From Desulfuromonas acetoxidans DSM 684 (GTDB lineage Bacteria; Desulfobacterota; Desulfuromonadia; Desulfuromonadales; Desulfuromonadaceae), in the NCBI RefSeq assembly GCF_000167355.1, contig NZ_AAEW02000006.1, positions 62,001-126,000 of the forward strand: 64,000 bases of DNA. Reading direction: 5' to 3'. Position numbers and translations under genes: made by a program. Under the pieces are notes generated by a model. The model was given only the letters and a program-made list of their open reading frames with translations, searched no databases and was not told where the DNA came from. Numbering within the stretch: the first letter of the stretch is position 1; every line of letters begins with the position of its first letter. Below, piece after piece: positions 46,103-56,945 of this stretch.

Positions 46103-47605
46103 TCACAGCTTTTTTTTACGCGACTGCCACAGCCATACCAACACGACAATGCCGAGTAAACGCGGTAGACTATCACCTGTGTGGGTATAAAGGCTACCCC
46201 CCTGTTTAAAATAGGCCGTTCCCTCCACCAGAGCCGGCTCAAACAAGCGCGATTGTGCCACCACCCGACCAAACGGATCAATCAGGGCACTCACACCGGT
46301 ATTGGCACTGCGCAATAACCAGACTTTATTCTCTATTGCCCGCATCCGTGCCATGTCCAGGTGCTGCCACGGTGCGGAAGAATCACCAAACCAGGCATCG
46401 TTGGTAATATTCACCAAAACCTGAGCACCTCGTGACACCAGCTTCTGCGCCAGCTCGGGAAAAATCGCTTCATAACAGATCAACACGCCAAGCTGATGGC
46501 CATTGAGTGAGAGCGGCTGCAACTGACCAGGGACAAAATCGCCAATCCCCTCGGCCAGTTTTTCAACCAAACCAAACATCCCCCACAACGGAACATACTC
46601 ACCGAATGGGACCAGATGAACCTTGTCACTGCGCCCCAACAATTGTGCCTGAGGAGAAAGCAGATAGGCGCTGTTGAGATAAGCAACCTCGTCATCAGCC
46701 TCCTGCCGTGCATAGCTGGGACTACCAAACAACAGATAGGCACGTTGCTCACGGGCGACGGAACGCACCTGATACGCACGCTCGCCGCCATTCTGGTAGA
46801 AGAACGGCGTGGCACTTTCCGGCCACACCAGCAGTTCCGGGTCTTGCGCCTGGGCACTGAGCTGACGGTAACGCTCCAGGGTACGCTGCAAATGGGCCGG
46901 ATCCCATTTAACCGCCTGATCAATACTGCCCTGCACCAACCCGACCTGTAGGGCATCCCGGTCAGGCTCCGCAGCGGCAAGACGCCAGTACCCATAGCCC
47001 AACTGACCGACCAGCACCAAGCCAACAATCAGGGCGCTGCGCCACGGCAAGGTTTCACCGGCCACGCGGCGGCGAACTCCATCGGCGAGCAAACCATTGA
47101 CCAGCAACAGCATCAATGCCAGGCCATAAACGCCGAACAGATCGGCACTTTGCACCAGCCACAGAGCATTAATCTGCGAGTAACCGATATTCCCCCAGGG
47201 AAAACCGGTAAACAGCCAGTTCCGCACATACTCAAGGGCCACCCAACACACTGCGGTTACCAGCGGCAGGGGCACATGAAGAGCGCGATGAATGCGCATG
47301 CTGCACCAGCAGGTCGCGGCCCAGAACAACGCCAGGTACGTCGCCAGTAACAGGTAAGCCACAATGGCCAACACCCACGGCATCTGGCCATAAACCGTCA
47401 TCACCAGATTCAACCAGTAGAGCGTCACCGCAAAAAAAACAACCCCGGCGCTGAATCCTGAGCGCCAGGGCCGAGAAGGCATCACGACAAGCAGCGGCAC
47501 CAGCGCCAGCCAGGCCAGCCACCCCTGCCCGGCCAACGGAAAAGCCAGGGCCATCAACAGGCCGGAAAAAGGTGGTGCCAAACGCTGCAGCCAGCGATCA
47601 GTCAT
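46103..47605 (-). CDS. lnt: Apolipoprotein N-acyltransferase Lnt
   Basis: Lnt adds the third acyl chain to lipoproteins on the periplasmic face of the inner membrane. The 500-residue protein has about six to seven N-terminal helices, including FTGFPWGNIGYSQ near 115-127. A nitrilase-type domain follows with the catalytic Glu in LVWPESATPFF (about 260), Lys in DKVHLVPFGEYVP, and Cys in GVLICYEAIFPE (about 376). A final membrane helix (LLGIVVLVWLW) precedes the basic C-terminus. It overlaps the corC-like gene by 8 bases. Confidence 0.95.
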   Translation of the reverse strand: MTDRWLQRLAPPFSGLLMALAFPLAGQGWLAWLALVPLLVVMPSRPWRSGFSAGVVFFAVTLYWLNLVMTVYGQMPWVLAIVAYLLLATYLALFWAATCWCSMRIHRALHVPLPLVTAVCWVALEYVRNWLFTGFPWGNIGYSQINALWLVQSADLFGVYGLALMLLLVNGLLADGVRRRVAGETLPWRSALIVGLVLVGQLGYGYWRLAAAEPDRDALQVGLVQGSIDQAVKWDPAHLQRTLERYRQLSAQAQDPELLVWPESATPFFYQNGGERAYQVRSVAREQRAYLLFGSPSYARQEADDEVAYLNSAYLLSPQAQLLGRSDKVHLVPFGEYVPLWGMFGLVEKLAEGIGDFVPGQLQPLSLNGHQLGVLICYEAIFPELAQKLVSRGAQVLVNITNDAWFGDSSAPWQHLDMARMRAIENKVWLLRSANTGVSALIDPFGRVVAQSRLFEPALVEGTAYFKQGGSLYTHTGDSLPRLLGIVVLVWLWQSRKKKL

Positions 47606-48446
47606 CCAACGGTTCCTCCGGGGACTCTTCGCGAATTACCCGAATTCGGTGGATCATCCGTTCGTCACTTTGCAACACCACCATTTTAAGCGGCTCAACA
47701 ACCACCTCTTCTCCCGGCTTGGGGACATAACCAAGTCGATGCAACAGCAACCCCCCCACCGAATCAAACTGATCACGCTCAAATTCGGGCAAGTCGTAAT
47801 GGTCTTCGAGTTCGTCCAAACTCAACCGCGCATCAACGACAATGGTTCCGGGAGTCTCCTCGATCAACTGGTTATCATCGAAATCATATTCGTCTTTGAT
47901 ATCGCCGATAATCTCTTCAATAAGATCTTCCAGCGTGATCAAACCGGAGGTGCCTCCGTATTCGTCAATGGCAATGGCAATATGCATCCGCTGGGTACGA
48001 AACTCCTGCAGCAACTCTTCAATACGCTTGGTCTCAGGGACGAAATAGGGCTTGCGCATCAAATCACGCAACGAAATCTCGTGGGAAGGCTGGCCCCAAA
48101 ATTTGAGCAGATCTTTGGCATAGACCAGACCAACAATACGGTCAATGGTCTCTTCGTAAACCGGAATGCGCGAGTGGCCAAACTTCAACACCATCTCAAT
48201 GAAGGTATCAAGGCTGGCATCCACCGGGCAGCTGCGCATTTCTGTGCGCGGAATCATCACCTCGCGGACAATGGTTTCACCGAATTCGAAGATGGAACTA
48301 AACATTTCGCCTTCTTCGGCGTTGATAATGCCCCCCTCTTCCGAAGCATGAATCAATTCCTGAAGATGCTCCTCCGAGGTAACATGATGGGTGATGCCGA
48401 GCAATCGCTGTAACCAGCTACGGCGGGTTTCCGGTGTGGTGTCCAT
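47598..48446 (-). CDS. CorC/HlyC-type CBS-domain protein (YbeX-like)
   Basis: This 282-residue soluble protein has a Glu-rich N-terminus (EEGGIINAEEGEMFSSIFEFGETIVREVMIPRTEM). Two CBS domains follow (about 60-180; SRIPVYEETIDRIVGLVYAKDLL and IAIAIDEYGGTSGLITLEDLIEEIIGDI), then a C-terminal transporter-associated domain (DARLSLDELEDHYDLP... SVGGLLLHRLGYVPKPGEEV). It lacks the DUF21 membrane domain, matching CorC/YbeX. The cluster ybeZ(phoH)-ybeY-ybeX-lnt is conserved from E. coli. YbeX has been linked to ribosome metabolism and Mg2+/Co2+ efflux. Confidence 0.92.
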   Translation of the reverse strand: MDTTPETRRSWLQRLLGITHHVTSEEHLQELIHASEEGGIINAEEGEMFSSIFEFGETIVREVMIPRTEMRSCPVDASLDTFIEMVLKFGHSRIPVYEETIDRIVGLVYAKDLLKFWGQPSHEISLRDLMRKPYFVPETKRIEELLQEFRTQRMHIAIAIDEYGGTSGLITLEDLIEEIIGDIKDEYDFDDNQLIEETPGTIVVDARLSLDELEDHYDLPEFERDQFDSVGGLLLHRLGYVPKPGEEVVVEPLKMVVLQSDERMIHRIRVIREESPEEPLDD

Positions 48447-48455
48447 GGCCTGTCC

Positions 48456-48929
48456 CTATTTACTCCCCTCAGTTATCAATTCGGGAAACGCCTGTTTGAG
48501 TACGGCAAACAGTTCCCGTTCCTTAGCTTCCATCTCCGTAGCCTGCTCTTCAGTGCCTCGCTCATGGTCATAACCGAGCAGATGAAGAATACCGTGGATA
48601 AGTAAAAAACTCATTTCACTGAAAAACGGCACACCAGCTTCGGCAGCATCACGTGCCGCCGTATCCGCAGAGATCACCACGTCGCCAAGCAGCTCCGGAC
48701 AAATGCCGGCTCCTTCGCCCTCTTGCTGGGCAAAAGAGATGACATTGGTCGGATTATCGCGTTGCAGATAATCGCGATTGATCTCCTGAATCTGGTCGTC
48801 GTCAACGATCACTACCGACAACTCGGTGTCGTCAGGACATTCCAAGGCGTTTAAGATCGTCTTGGCTGCCGTTTTGAACGTTGTTATCGGGATGTCGTGG
48901 TTCTGCTGCTGATTCTCGATGTAGATCAT
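48456..48929 (-). CDS. ybeY: Endoribonuclease YbeY (16S rRNA maturation)
   Basis: The 157-residue metalloprotein contains the zinc motif HGILHLLGYDHERGTEE with three His, and NVISFAQQEG and LGDVVISADTA, all typical of YbeY. YbeY matures the 3' end of 16S rRNA and takes part in ribosome quality control. The ATG at 48929 gives the usual N-terminus and has AGAGGA upstream. This creates a 98-bp overlap with the 3' end of the upstream pgpH-like gene. A longer frame to 48995 exists but adds a basic tail atypical of the family. Confidence 0.93.
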   Translation of the reverse strand: MIYIENQQQNHDIPITTFKTAAKTILNALECPDDTELSVVIVDDDQIQEINRDYLQRDNPTNVISFAQQEGEGAGICPELLGDVVISADTAARDAAEAGVPFFSEMSFLLIHGILHLLGYDHERGTEEQATEMEAKERELFAVLKQAFPELITEGSK

Positions 48930-51252
48930 CGTTGTTAATCCTCTTAATCTCTTTATCTTTTTCCCGCTCTTTATACGCAGGTTCTGGATACTCAATACGC
49001 TGGTGGAAAATTCCCGACAGCATGCGGTTGAAACTCTTGGCTATCTCGTGCAAGTCTTTGAGCGTCAATTCACATTCATCAAGTTGACCGTCAATAAAAA
49101 TCTTGTTGATAATTTTCTGCACCATGCCCTGAATACGCGCCGGAGTTGGATCCATCAAGGTACGGCCTGCCGCTTCCACAGCATCGGCCAGCATAATCAA
49201 TGCCGCCTCACGGGTCTGCGGTTTCGGGCCGGGATAACGGTAATCCTGCTCGTTGACCTGACCGTCCTTTTCACGCTGCTGCGCCTTGTCGTAGAAAAAT
49301 TTGATCAGGGCGGTGCCATGGTGCTGGCGGATAATCTCAATCAAATCATGGCCGAGCTTGTGTTCTTTGGCCAGTTCAACCCCGTCCTTGACATGGGAGA
49401 TGAGGATCAAAGCGCTCATCGACGGCGCCAATTTGTCGTGGCGATTTTCCGGCGGATGCATGTTTTCGGCAAAGTAGAGCGGCTTCTTGATCTTGCCAAT
49501 ATCGTGATAATATGCCGCCACCCGCGCCAACAGCGGGTTAGCACCAATAGCCTCGGCGGCATTTTCCACCAGATTGCCGACCACGATGGAGTGGTGGTAA
49601 GTGCCCGGTGCCTGAATCATCAATTCACGCAGAATCGGTGTATTCATATTGGCCAGTTCCATCAGCTTGAAATCTGTAGTGTATTTAAACAGCGACTCCA
49701 CCAGTGGAATGGTGCCGTTAACCACCATGGCACAACCGAACGCACCGACAAAGGCAAAGCCGAGTCGGTACAACACCTGCTCGTTGAACGGATTGTCCGA
49801 CAGCGCATAAATGGCCAGCACCATGGCCATATTCACCAGCGCCAGATACCAGCCAGCCCGATACAGGTTGCTGCGTGCCTGACTGTGACGGACCCAATGG
49901 GCGGCCGTCACACTGCCAACCAGCACATACAAGGAGATATACAGGTTATTGCCGAACAACATCCCCATCAGCAAGGCCAACAGGGTTGAGAACACATAAG
50001 CCACTTCGGAATTGAGGACAATCCGTACCAACATGGCTCCGGCGGCAAACGGCAGCAGGTAATAATAGCAGGCCGAATCAATGTAGGGAAAAGCGCTCTG
50101 CAAGGCCATGGAGATAAAAATCCCCACCTTGGCAATAACGAACAAACCGACAAAGACCGAAACCAGAAACAGCAGATCGCGCTGCTGCGGATGGTACTTA
50201 CGAATATTCATCTTGGCAAAACGATGCAGCACATAAAACAACAACATAATGCCCAGCATCAGACCCGCGGCATTGCGTGCCATCTTGAAGCCATCCACCG
50301 AAGACTGCAGCGCCTGCAATTTGCGAACCTGCTCGGCAGTAACACGCTCGCCTTCACGGACAATCATTTCACCACGTTTGACCTGTAACAGCACCGGCAG
50401 TACCGACTCCGCTGCCGCCCGCTTGCGAACTTCCGTCTCACTCTGATTAAAGGTCAGATTGGGGCGCACCATTTTCTGCAAAACAGCCATCACCTCAACC
50501 GCTTCAGCAGTAACGTTCTGATCGCCGAACAACTGCTGTCTCAGATCCCTGAGCACCTCATTGAGGCCAAGCACCGACTGCTTATCCTCAACAATCGTTT
50601 CTTTATCATTGGCCAGATCACGGATAAGGATGGAACCATGCCAGTTGTTCTGAAACAACTCCAAATTGCCGACAATTTTGCGATTCAACCCGTGACGGAT
50701 ATCGCGACTGAACTTTGGCACCAAAACATCATCTCGAGCCAACAGACGTAACGATTTCGTCTGTGCTTCCGTCAGTTGCAGATCAAGGATGGCGGATGGG
50801 TTCACCGCAGGCAAGGGCTTCACCCCAGCTTCGACAATCGCTTCGGCAGCCGCCTCACTGGTCGTTTTATCCGGAGAGGCGGGTGAGGCCTCTTCAACCG
50901 TCACGTCATCATGACGATGAAGTTCCGCGTTAAGCTGGCTAAGAACGTCGGAAAATTTCTGCGCCACAGCCTTACTCGGACGCGGATCATAGTCGTAAAT
51001 CGGGATCACCGCCTGTGCGGCATCCTGTTTCTTCTTCTCGGTCAGTTCCGGTTCAGGCACCAGAAAATCGCGCGGCGTTTTAATATCGCGCGATGCGATG
51101 TCACCCGGTTTGTAATAATCGGGGACAAAACCGCCTTTAGGAATGATGATGATGGTCAGAAGAGCCGCCAACACCACCAACAGCAACCGTTTGGTCGCCG
51201 ACGGCGTTAAAGCAAAACGTTTCTTCTGAATCTGTTTATGTTTGGGCGTCAT
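48832..51252 (-). CDS. 7TM-HD family phosphohydrolase (PgpH/YqfF-like)
   Basis: An 806-residue membrane protein: one N-terminal helix (about 22-40, LLLVVLAALLTIIIIPKGG), a large extracytoplasmic domain (about 60-320, 7TMR-HDED type), about seven helices (about 325-530), then a cytoplasmic HD domain. The HD domain has ARVAAYYHDIGKIKKPLYFAENM (HD near 580), NRHDKLAPSMSALILISHVKDG, IIRQHHGTALIKFFY and LIMLADAVEAAGRTL. In Firmicutes PgpH hydrolyses c-di-AMP. Whether the deltaproteobacterial relatives do so is not established. The acidic/basic C-terminal tail (from about 760) overlaps ybeY in another frame. Confidence 0.88.
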   Translation of the reverse strand: MTPKHKQIQKKRFALTPSATKRLLLVVLAALLTIIIIPKGGFVPDYYKPGDIASRDIKTPRDFLVPEPELTEKKKQDAAQAVIPIYDYDPRPSKAVAQKFSDVLSQLNAELHRHDDVTVEEASPASPDKTTSEAAAEAIVEAGVKPLPAVNPSAILDLQLTEAQTKSLRLLARDDVLVPKFSRDIRHGLNRKIVGNLELFQNNWHGSILIRDLANDKETIVEDKQSVLGLNEVLRDLRQQLFGDQNVTAEAVEVMAVLQKMVRPNLTFNQSETEVRKRAAAESVLPVLLQVKRGEMIVREGERVTAEQVRKLQALQSSVDGFKMARNAAGLMLGIMLLFYVLHRFAKMNIRKYHPQQRDLLFLVSVFVGLFVIAKVGIFISMALQSAFPYIDSACYYYLLPFAAGAMLVRIVLNSEVAYVFSTLLALLMGMLFGNNLYISLYVLVGSVTAAHWVRHSQARSNLYRAGWYLALVNMAMVLAIYALSDNPFNEQVLYRLGFAFVGAFGCAMVVNGTIPLVESLFKYTTDFKLMELANMNTPILRELMIQAPGTYHHSIVVGNLVENAAEAIGANPLLARVAAYYHDIGKIKKPLYFAENMHPPENRHDKLAPSMSALILISHVKDGVELAKEHKLGHDLIEIIRQHHGTALIKFFYDKAQQREKDGQVNEQDYRYPGPKPQTREAALIMLADAVEAAGRTLMDPTPARIQGMVQKIINKIFIDGQLDECELTLKDLHEIAKSFNRMLSGIFHQRIEYPEPAYKEREKDKEIKRINNDDLHRESAAEPRHPDNNVQNGSQDDLKRLGMS

Positions 51253-54069: not shown

Positions 54070-54485
54070 GTTTTGTGGTACTTGATGCGGAGTCTATTGA
54101 TCTGGCGAACTTCATCCGTTCTCATGGTTGGTGTCCACGTGACGCGGGCTGCCGCGCCCGCACGTCATTGCACCCTTCGGGTTCCCTCTCTCCATTCTCT
54201 TACACCGCAATATCGGCAAAACTCGCTGACGTTCATTGCGTTCGGTGCTGCTGAATAACACACGAATGCAGGGCGGGCACCGTCCCGCCCGGTTAATTGG
54301 TGCCACGAAAAAAATAGAGAACGGCGTCAAACTGTTGTCAACATTTTACGCCAGAGATGATGCGTTGCACGATTCGCCGACCTAAAGGGCGGCGAGCCGA
54401 ATCTGTGAAGCACAACGGAAACAGACTCAGTGTCGGTTAATCTGAGGGTCAGGAGGTGTTCAGCCGGTTTTTGCATCTGTAGTGG

Positions 54486-55391
54486 TCAACTATTTTTGGA
54501 CACAGATATAAGTTCTTTTTCCGCTACAGCCGGAGCCATTCCTTTATTTCTTTGATGAGGTCTGCTCCAGTTGTAATAGTTCATAAAATAGTGCTCTATG
54601 TCGAGCTGTGCTTCTGCAAACGTTTGATAGCCACCTTTTGGCATCCATTCGCTTTTGTAACTGCGAAACAAACGCTCCATTGGTGCATTATCCCAGCAAT
54701 TTCCTCGCCGACTCATGCTCTGTTTCATCTGATAGCATCGAAGCTGGAGACAGAACAAATCACTGCCATATTGTTGTCCCTGGTCTGTGTGAACCAAAAC
54801 CCCAGTTGGCTTTTTCCTTGTCCGATAAGCGCTTTTGATAGCGTTAACTGCAAGTTGTGCGTCACAGTTTTCTGATAAGCTCAACCCAACAACACGCCGA
54901 GTGTAAAGATCTAATACCGCAGCGACATAAATCCACCGTTTTCCAACTCGAACATAGGTAATATCACTACACCATGTCTGGTTTTTCCTCTTCGCATCAA
55001 AATCCCGATTCAACAGGTTCGGAATCTTTGGATGTTCTACTTTGGCAATTCTGTACAAACGTGGTTTAGGTTGTTTACTGAATAAGCTCGCCTCACGCAT
55101 CAGACGACGTACTCTGAAACGTCCTATGGTGATACCTTCACTGCGTAACATGTTGGTAAGACTGCGGCTTCCAGCTGAATAACGACTTTTATTGAACAAC
55201 TCCTTGATCCGAATACGTAACTTGATGCGTTCAGTATCTGGATGAGCTCGACGATTCAAATAGGCATAGTAGCTAGAACGCGAAACATCAAAAAGACGGC
55301 AAAGGACACAAACGCAGTCATGCTCTCTCAATGTACTGATCAACTCAAACGAAGCTTGTCTTCCGACATTAAGAGAGCGGTAGCCTTTTTT
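54486..55391 (-). CDS. IS3-family transposase OrfB (DDE integrase), made by -1 frameshift
   Basis: About 300 residues follow the frameshift point: an HTH_21-like region (DVSRSSYYAYLNRRAHPD, SRSLTNMLRSEGITIGRFRVRRLMREASL), then the rve integrase core. The catalytic residues are Asp in TWCSDITYV, Asp in VLVHTDQGQQYGSD and Glu in NCWDNAPMERLFRSYK, the D-D-35-E spacing of IS3. It ends with FMNYYNWSRPHQRNKGMAP. The same frame stays open upstream to 55604, but that part is orfA DNA read out of frame. No defects were seen, so the element may be active. Confidence 0.92.
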   Translation of the reverse strand, partial: KKGYRSLNVGRQASFELISTLREHDCVCVLCRLFDVSRSSYYAYLNRRAHPDTERIKLRIRIKELFNKSRYSAGSRSLTNMLRSEGITIGRFRVRRLMREASLFSKQPKPRLYRIAKVEHPKIPNLLNRDFDAKRKNQTWCSDITYVRVGKRWIYVAAVLDLYTRRVVGLSLSENCDAQLAVNAIKSAYRTRKKPTGVLVHTDQGQQYGSDLFCLQLRCYQMKQSMSRRGNCWDNAPMERLFRSYKSEWMPKGGYQTFAEAQLDIEHYFMNYYNWSRPHQRNKGMAPAVAEKELISVSKNS

Positions 55392-55642
55392 AGGATTTGC
55401 TTCTCTTTCTCCAGACGACGAATATGGGCTTCGAGTTCCTGGATACGCTTTTTGTCCTCTGTAAGGGCTGGAGTTTCCGGTGTCGTCCCAGCTCGTTCCT
55501 GTTTGAGCTGCTTTACCCAACGACGCATGGCCGTTTCTCCAACATCCATAACTCGGGCAGCATCTGGGACACTGTATCCCTGATCCAAAACAAGGCTGGC
55601 ACATTCTACCTTGAATTCATTTGTGAATATTTTTCTTCCCAT
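55340..55642 (-). CDS. IS3-family transposase OrfA (HTH protein)
   Basis: This 100-residue protein begins MGRKIFTNEFKVECASLVLD. It has a helix-turn-helix (YSVPDAARVMDVGETAMRRWVKQLK, about 23-47) and a heptad-leucine region (RIQELEAHIRRLEKEKQILKKA), as in IS3-family OrfA. Near the end, the slippery A-AAA-AAG heptamer at 55391-55385 (minus strand) allows a -1 shift into orfB to make the OrfAB transposase. Confidence 0.92.
   Translation of the reverse strand: MGRKIFTNEFKVECASLVLDQGYSVPDAARVMDVGETAMRRWVKQLKQERAGTTPETPALTEDKKRIQELEAHIRRLEKEKQILKKATALLMSEDKLRLS
55385..55391 (-). other. -1 frameshift slippery site of the IS
   Basis: On the minus strand the heptamer is AAAAAAG, positioned so that the orfA frame (CTA AAA AAG) slips back one base into the orfB frame, giving KKGYRSLNVG at the junction. 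Confidence 0.8.
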
Positions 55643-55804
55643 AGTCCTTAGACCCCTTTCTCGTTTAGGTGGATGTTACCACCTTTGTGGGTGTCCAAGT
55701 TTAGTAGACCACTACAATCCTTTTGAGCGGCCAGTCAAAAGGATGTCGGCTGCCGGGACGAAACCCGGCGACCTTGACTTTGACATTCAGTGGTTCGTCA
55801 TCCG

Positions 55805-56380
55805 AAACTGATCGCTCTGGCGAACTTCATCCGTTCGCAAAGGTGGTACCCACGTGACGCGGGCTGCCGCGCCCGCACGTCGGGGCACTTTTGCGTCGAC
55901 AAAAGTACCGCAAAATCGACTCCCGTCATTGCGCCCTTACGGGTTCCCTCTCTGCGTTCACTTACACCACGATGTCGGCAAAACTCGCTGACGCTCAGAC
56001 AGGTTGCCGACGACCATCGCGGTGACCGTTCTCTTCGTTCGGCGCTGCTGAACGGGAGGGCTTGGCTGCTCAATGACAGACGAACAAAGGGCGGGCACCG
56101 TCCCGCCCGTTTGATCGGTGCCACACCAGAGATAGAGCGCGACATCATATTGTTATCAACGTTTTACGCCAAAGATGATGAGTTGCACGATTTGCCGAGC
56201 TAAAGGGAGGCAAGCCGAATCCGTGAAGCATCACGGAAACAGACACAGTGCCGGTTGATCAAGGTTCAGGAGGTGTTCAAGCCGGCTTTTGCATCCTTTT
56301 GAGCGGCCAGTCAAAAGTATGTCGGCTGCCGGGACGAAACCCGGCGACCTTGACTTTGACATTCAGTGGTTCGTCATCCG
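55805..56380. repeat. Long hairpin-rich direct repeat, copy B (576 bp)
   Basis: This unit recurs directly after itself with a period of 576 bp. It contains at least four strong inverted repeats: GCGGGC/GCCCGC (55859-55876), ACTTTTG/CAAAAGT (55887-55906), GGGCGGG/CCCGCCC (56089-56108) and CCGGG/CCCGG (56329-56344). CCTTTTGA/TCAAAAG (about 56295-56317) is one base degenerate here compared with copy A. Several short frames cross it, but none has protein-family character. Near-identity with copy C implies recent duplication or homogenisation. Confidence 0.88.
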
Positions 56381-56935
56381 AAGCTGATCGCTCTGGCGAA
56401 CTTCATCCGTTCGCGAAGGTGGTACCCACGTGACGCGGGCTGCCGCGCCCGCACGTCGGGGCACTTTTGCGTCGACAAAAGTACCGCAAAATCGACTCCC
56501 GTCATTGCGCCCTTACGGGTTCCCTCTCTGCGTTCACTTACACCGCGATGTCGGCAAAACTCGCTGACGCTCAAACAGGTTGCCGACGACCATCGCGATG
56601 ACCGTTCTCTTCGTTCGGCGCTGCTGAACGGGAGGGCTCAGGTGCTAAATTACACACGACCGTAGGGCGGGCTCCGTCCCGCCCGTTTGATCGGTGCCAC
56701 ACTGGAGATAGAGTAAGACGAAAGAGCGTTATCAAGGTTTTACACCAAAGATGATGAATTGCACAATTTGCCGAGCTAAAGGGAGGCAAGCCGAATCCGT
56801 GAAGCATCACGGAAACAGACACAGTGCCGGTTGATCAAGGTTCAGGAGGTGTTCAAGCCGGCTTTTGCATCCTTTTGAGCGGCCAGTCAAAAGTATGTCG
56901 GCTGCCGGGACGAAACCCGGCGACCTTGACTTTGA
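56381..56935. repeat. Long hairpin-rich direct repeat, copy C
   Basis: This copy is nearly identical to copy B up to ACCTTGACTTTGA, where it diverges. A few differences cluster in the middle (for example CACCGT to CTCCGT in the loop of the GGGCGGG hairpin, leaving the stem intact). It ends next to the 17-bp-arm hairpin that follows the aldo/keto reductase gene. Confidence 0.86.
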
Positions 56936-56945
56936 TCTTAAATTT

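Follow-up and report, generated by a model that had tools for sequence, protein, structure and literature searches.

A 576-bp repeat array downstream of eno is built from inverted pairs of a large folded element found across the order

Directly past the eno terminator, the window analyzed here (a 64,000-nt stretch of the Desulfuromonas acetoxidans DSM 684 genome) carries an array of 576-bp direct repeats, in which each unit is an inverted, head-to-head pair of diverged copies of one element, module M1 on the minus strand and module M2 on the plus strand. We refer to the element, as it is seen at ~210 nt in other families of the order, as E. With somewhat more confidence than doubt, we interpret the array as a BIME/REP-like intergenic mosaic of this large folded element, which would spread via its folded single strand while array size would change by recombination. 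A first-pass annotation of the same DNA had offered three options, namely structured RNAs in tandem, a mobile unit of the non-autonomous kind, or a site of recombination or condensation; the first two gain support from the present results, so that this interpretation is upheld in part. The inverted-pair unit, the insertion sequence inside the first copy and the order-wide family had been missed.

Anatomy of the array and its insertion sequence

As initially described, near-identical repeats are accompanied by a diverged third: two units with exact spacing (55717-56292 and 56293-56868) share 95-98% identity, the array closes with a partial copy that runs to 56935, and the diverged copy A, the first of the three units in the window, starts at ~54075 and is interrupted by an IS3-family element (Table 1). 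The other end of the array adjoins the 3' end of the convergent aldo/keto reductase gene. The PhoH, 7TM-HD, YbeY, CorC gene order adjoining eno (window 47598-51252) is one known from Desulfuromonadota. TRF, which detects periods of up to 500, did not pick up the array. The strong hairpins named in the annotation are all present in the units, and the loop change between copies B and C with conserved stem is real (GGGCGGGC-A/T-CCGTCCCGCCC), yet another stem does differ between the two copies (CCTTTTGA..TCAAAAGG to CCTTTTGA..TCAAAAGT).

Each unit consists of M1 (about u95-350) and M2 (about u321-71). Weaker relatives in other families of the order surfaced via a covariance model of the M1 core, and E as seen there begins sharply at its 5' end (CCCGTGTGACGC) and has a GC hairpin at its 3' end, after which comes GACCTT. 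In this genome, a profile made only from the E copies of other families gave 77 matches to M1, every one on the opposite strand, and 95 to M2, every one on the same strand. Similarly, R2, a covariance model of E with 44 rows, one of which is a canonical E copy from this genome, gave five matches in the window, all inside the array, two on '-' and three on '+', the '-' matches falling on both intact M1 and the '+' matches on the M2 copies. The canonical copy, which is of the other-family type (L084, 2787-3002), lies inverted beside an M1 in a region bordered by branched-chain amino-acid transport and oxidoreductase genes.

Inverted pairing extends to other families, where all 30 adjacent pairs of E copies less than 150 nt apart are inverted (17 head-to-head, 13 tail-to-tail, 0 tandem), where one locus forms an alternating -,+,-,+ array with a ~510-bp period (L211), and where two E subtypes, distinguished by their 3' hairpin, recur as partners. 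Palindromic modules are therefore found in alternating orientation, as in BIME/REP arrays.

Table 1. Features of the array in the window (window coordinates; CM R2, match of covariance model R2)
Feature	Position	Strand	Evidence or detail
Copy A M1, diverged, with internal deletion, E-family	54075..54255	-	nhmmer module match 54096-54255; BLAST u74-165 and u208 onward
Copy A 5' part of M2, E-family, cut by IS	54246..54477	+	module match, M2 positions 29-260
IS3-family insertion sequence, complete, 1,239 bp, splits copy A	54478-55716	-	Pfam rve, HTH_21, HTH_Tnp_1; terminal repeats
IS3-family ORFs	54486-55604 and 55340-55642	both -	
Copy A remainder of M2 (3'), including the terminal hairpin and the hexamer tail	55717..55786	+	module match, M2 positions 258-327; CM R2 55571-55775
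Copy B M1	55811..56078	-	module match; CM R2 55855-56056 on '-', E 3e-15
Copy B M2	56036..56362	+	module match; CM R2 56220-56351 on '+', E 9e-9
Copy C M1	56387..56654	-	module match; CM R2 56431-56632 on '-', E 5.6e-16
Copy C M2	56612..56939	+	module match; CM R2 56682-56927 on '+', E 3.8e-9
Copy C M1 3'-terminal GC-rich hairpin GACGCGGGC..GCCCGCACGTC	56432..56457	-	C-G/T-A switch, 16:16
Copy C M1 putative pseudoknot/third-strand region	56460..56496	-	covariation in alignment A1
Copy C M1 pseudoknot stem	56460-56469/56476-56485	-	
Copy C M1 pseudoknot, loop pairing with upstream bases	56471-56475 with 56492-56496	-	
Copy C M1 putative third strand	56488-56491	-	TTTT on '-'
Copy C M2 stem CATCCTTTTGA/TCAAAAGTATG, positional homologue of the S2 stem of E	56868..56897	+	covariation A-U/C-G, A-U/G-C
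Copy C M2 3'-terminal hairpin GCCGGGACGAAACCCGGC	56904..56921	+	
Hexamer tail GACCTT-GACTTT-GATCTT, 3' of terminal hairpin	56922..56939	+	

The annotation had seen no ORF of family character in the repeats, which applies to the other ORFs of the unit, none with a Pfam match, but overlooks the complete IS3-family element within copy A. This element has imperfect 26-bp terminal repeats and a 3-bp target duplication (ATC at 54475-54477 and 55717-55719). Its insertion point, GCATC^ATCCTTTTGAG in the 5' arm of the M2 stem CATCCTTTTGA/TCAAAAGTATG, is the same in the window and at two further loci of the genome, one of them in the opposite orientation (L051, 6559-7797; the other L056, 9737-10975), and the IS copies at this M2 base are 99.4-100% identical. 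In a congener, a further, split copy has one end at the same M2 site (L155, 3184-3628). Since at least two independent insertions occurred at one base, the element has a target preference; M2 is specifically hit in both orientations, in the genome and in a congener, which is a property of REP/BIME sequences as well, for which specific IS elements have been reported (PMC1525189), with IS1397 as the classical REP-specific example (cited in PMC2817692). A scan of genome contigs with the IS transposase gave distant matches only.

Fold, covariation and third strand

The single-strand fold predicted for E comprises a long multi-position helix, hairpins, a pseudoknot with a third strand and the 3' GC hairpin, and is held by covariation across the families of the order. 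In alignment A3 (44 E copies), a hand-set structure of 51 pairs has 88.4% of cells paired (71.5% when shuffled, 45-49% when slid), 41 of the 51 pairs change on both sides, with 380 such cells against 113 in shuffled alignments, and covariation reaches 0.472 against 0.176, none of 500 shuffles attaining any of these measures; because kinship among the copies inflates the counts they are not probabilities, but despite this inflation the changes are spread over many columns and both subtypes. Within the 13-pair stem of E, 12 pairs carry double-sided changes, and the pseudoknot, formed by loop-to-upstream pairing, is among the covarying helices. Covarying helices on one strand, as in structured RNA, are thus present in E, and the stem covariation that the annotation had asked for, alongside transcripts, as a sign of RNA is strong. 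G-U exceeds A-C on the E strand by 99 to 12 in an earlier fold, with the reverse on the other strand, and by a smaller margin, 103 to 59, in the A3 structure. Single-sequence folding, a weak test here, gave z values of -1.6 and -2.3.

Ahead of the pseudoknot stem, a run of six pyrimidines is positioned as a candidate third strand, parallel to the purine strand of the stem. Triplex-compatible combinations (T with A or C with G) occupy 263 of 264 cells, compared to a shuffled mean of 81.5%; none of 2000 shuffles equals the observed value and every slide remains at or below 63%. Four matched combinations (TTTTCT/AAAAGA, TCTTTT/AGAAAA, TTCTTT/AAGAAA and TTTTTT/AAAAAA) occur in both subtypes. At the level of sequence, this pattern is that of a T.A-T / C.G-C triple, and a third strand matching the purine strand of a hairpin is also what characterizes intrastrand triplex motifs. 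M1 retains the stem, a TTTT/AAAA third strand and the pseudoknot, the last in both an A-T and a T-A version; M2 retains the stem, with compensatory changes.

Dispersal, site history and competing explanations

Many dispersed copies, proposed beforehand as the sign of a mobile element, were found when the unit was searched against its own genome (3.82 Mb, 51 contigs): 136 BLAST matches are spread over about 40 scored places; the 68 sites of a 24-base stem motif, some in additional loci, compare with 0 for the reversed control. From 48 extracted regions, about 70 arrays were resolved, none within a predicted gene; the modules are thus dispersed, intergenic and of high copy number, as BIME/REP sequences are. 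The number of arrays and the 24-mer count against its control exclude chance as the origin of the array. Array ends lie mostly at module boundaries and in this genus are ragged at both starts and ends, and the inverted pair has hairpins at both ends and no exact TIR with which to compare it to a MITE of a DDE transposon. The terminal hairpin of M2 is followed by GACCTT-type hexamers, the same tail in all 111 detected cases, of 3-27 units (mostly 3 or 4, once 25, once 27). At one site in two species (L052 3140-3302 and L154 3978-4128), the tail has grown to 27 and 25 units (GGTTTT/GGTCCT/GGTCTT), a possible hypervariable locus. In about 19 places M1 carries, always at the same point, an insert of ~160 bp whose ends are GGGGTTGT/ACAACCCC (among them L041 3712-3873, L044, L046, L056, L064, L076 and L081); it is far better conserved than the surrounding M1 and is possibly a MITE in its own right.

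Across the order, R2 detected E in 127 of 136 genomes, as opposed to 6 of 141 other genomes of the class; scoring was limited to 8 candidates in each genome, which makes the copy numbers lower bounds. Neither E nor the unit matches Rfam 15, whether at the gathering score or at E 5 / E 1. Outside the class, three genomes (L214, L215 and L221) carry a TGTTTGAG..CGAGTTTTTG hairpin with variable yet complementary tips and different flanks, which may represent a more distant family of repeats. Plasmid and phage collections contain no match to the unit, and spread by these vehicles was rejected for E also, which gives one 33-bp plasmid match only, its pattern matches in viral contigs being unrelated sequence.

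Four congeners carry the same repeats past the same eno terminator, in other module numbers, and in three of them the eno/aldo-keto gap holds other inserted genes too. These accessory genes, beside the arrays, differ per congener (L123 2018-3792, L125 1961-3318 and L126 2068-3942: a secreted protein with a coiled coil, a TIR-like protein together with its small partner, and a set of BrnT-like genes), and the gap is a possible insertion hot spot. A gene-cassette system, to which the genes lying between arrays at this locus in the congeners had pointed, was rejected, since arrays lie mostly between core operon genes. At loci with matchable flanks, nearly all comparisons showed an occupied site with a different module string, such as a single M2 here where G008 has M1.M2.M1.M2.M1.M2; shorter, unoccupied gaps were seen at several sites in G009 and one in G002. 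The sites are therefore old and the unit number labile, which would fit recombination between direct repeats. Because no clean recent pair of empty and occupied sites was found among those compared, mobility itself is something we infer.

These observations suggest a model in which the folded single strand, RNA or ssDNA, would be the selected form of the repeat and would be recognised by a trans-acting enzyme when copies are made or moved, usually as the inverted pair, the putative spreading unit. After a pair has become established, 576-bp units may be gained or lost by recombination or slippage between direct repeats, and homologous exchange may mix modules. The pair that lies past eno in the window, common to five congeners, would have grown to three units in this strain and then been struck by the target-specific IS3 element. 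Near-universal presence and shared sites also fit a function maintained by the host.

Gene context was evaluated with home-made gene calls, by which array-bearing gaps are convergent in 33 cases, codirectional in 29 and divergent in 2. A circular chromosome necessarily has as many convergent as divergent gaps, so that 33 against 2 is a real skew. Arrays are located at gene 3' ends and avoid divergent promoters, and promoter avoidance suffices for the skew. No replication-strand bias was clear by eye in the match positions of one complete congener with an assumed origin. Orthologous copies diverge faster than the adjacent genes, and their stems are slightly more conserved than the rest, e.g. 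0.914 against 0.849 with an automatic, noisy hairpin set.

The same context would be expected if E acted in cis within the 3' regions of mRNAs, its third-strand pseudoknot stabilising or terminating transcripts and the inverted pair providing each of two convergent genes with a sense copy. The excess of G-U over A-C on the E strand points in this direction, as do the triple helices by which some transcripts and transposon RNAs are protected at their 3' ends (PMC11411715, PMC12501189). Against this, solitary copies in other families are oriented either way with respect to the upstream gene, with no preference (12 '+', 10 '-', a small sample on home-made gene calls), copies occur in both orientations within operons, promoter avoidance alone would yield this context, and orthologous copies diverge faster than the genes beside them. 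We regard this explanation as possible but unlikely.

A more far-reaching extension of the element's own spread, which we rate as a long shot, would make E a new order-wide folded single-stranded element, most likely an RNA with a telomerase/ENE-type third-strand pseudoknot, copying itself in inverted alpha/beta pairs, possibly by reverse transcription onto the hexamer tail, and a bacterial counterpart of SINEs.

We consider it quite unlikely that the arrays are protein-binding chromosome sites (for gyrase, IHF/HU or a nucleoid protein) that organise or relax DNA between transcription units. Intergenic, inverted arrays with convergent enrichment in ~70 places would suit this role, similar ones have been suggested for BIMEs (PMC2817692), and putative IHF/HU sites have been suggested for multicopy sequences in Geobacter (PMC2700814), but duplex binding alone leaves the pair-by-pair covariation, the pseudoknot and the third strand unexplained.

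Improbable, too, is a SINE-like retroposon, with E RNA copied by a target-primed reverse transcriptase, the 3' hairpin and hexamer tail as recognised end and ragged 5' ends as truncations. The tail of 3-27 units after the terminal hairpin is a 3' repeat of the kind expected, and array starts are ragged; however, ends as well as starts are ragged in this genus and both cluster at module boundaries, the 3' end of M1 has no hexamer tail, and plain slippage can grow a tail. Finally, there is next to no likelihood that the unit is a decayed protein-coding gene or a fragment of a known IS or intron, the finding named in advance as refuting a repeat of this kind: ORFs of 99-137 aa exist in the unit, but they have no Pfam match, Rfam is negative, the covariation lies in non-coding helices and plasmids and phages yield no match.

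Taken together, these results favor the BIME-like mosaic.

Relation to known repeat systems

An ordinary-looking repeat array has thus led to a structured element that nearly every genome of the order carries and that Rfam lacks, and to a target-specific IS3 element whose target is a stem of its fold. The covariation-supported pseudoknot and third strand make direct structural and functional tests possible. Repeats of this kind also pose the question of the enzyme behind their copying, and of whether it is as RNA or as single-stranded DNA that they fold. E repeats further account for many short 'hypothetical' ORFs as spurious. No description of the E family was found in the open-access literature, the multicopy sets of PMC2700814 being compared by their description only.

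The array works like a BIME. Similar to BIME and REP sequences (PMC2817692), it consists of intergenic, dispersed palindromic modules in strictly alternating orientation, in clusters of varied length, with complementary stem changes and as a target of specific ISs. REPs are single hairpins of 20-40 bp (PMC2817692), whereas E has ~210 nt, several helices and a predicted third-strand pseudoknot. As with REPINs and the GTAG/CGTC repeats (PMC3116915, PMC3733652), the inverted (hetero)dimer is the usual unit, and like the CGTC repeats E occurs without linked transposase; unlike REPINs, it is much larger and, at the loci examined, does not flank RAYT genes. Y1 transposase genes are common in the order, but none of the 28 loci examined carries E, M1, M2 or a GTAG-headed REP-like motif, and for this reason we do not present E as a demonstrated RAYT system. 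Since both the size definition and the RAYT link fail, E is not filed as a REP; it widens the range of BIME-like repeats, which now includes, beside the single short hairpin, a fold of 200 nt that comes in obligate inverted pairs.

With the bacterial intrastrand triplex motifs, which are tied to local instability (PMC4666352), E shares a repeated intergenic hairpin and a third strand within one strand, but its third strand is pyrimidine and its stem A/T-rich, in contrast to the main 37-nt G/C-rich purine motif, and it is tied to a loop-upstream pseudoknot within a longer conserved fold. MALAT1 and transposon ENE (PMC11411715, PMC12501189) likewise place a U-rich strand against an A-U stem near a 3' end; these are eukaryotic RNAs, while E is known from DNA alone. 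The multicopy sequences of Geobacter metallireducens, whose order we read as the same as, or near, that of the E hosts, are by their description (PMC2700814) also multicopy, intergenic and often paired on opposite strands, and it is by this description only that their short tandem 5-8-mer sites are set apart from E.
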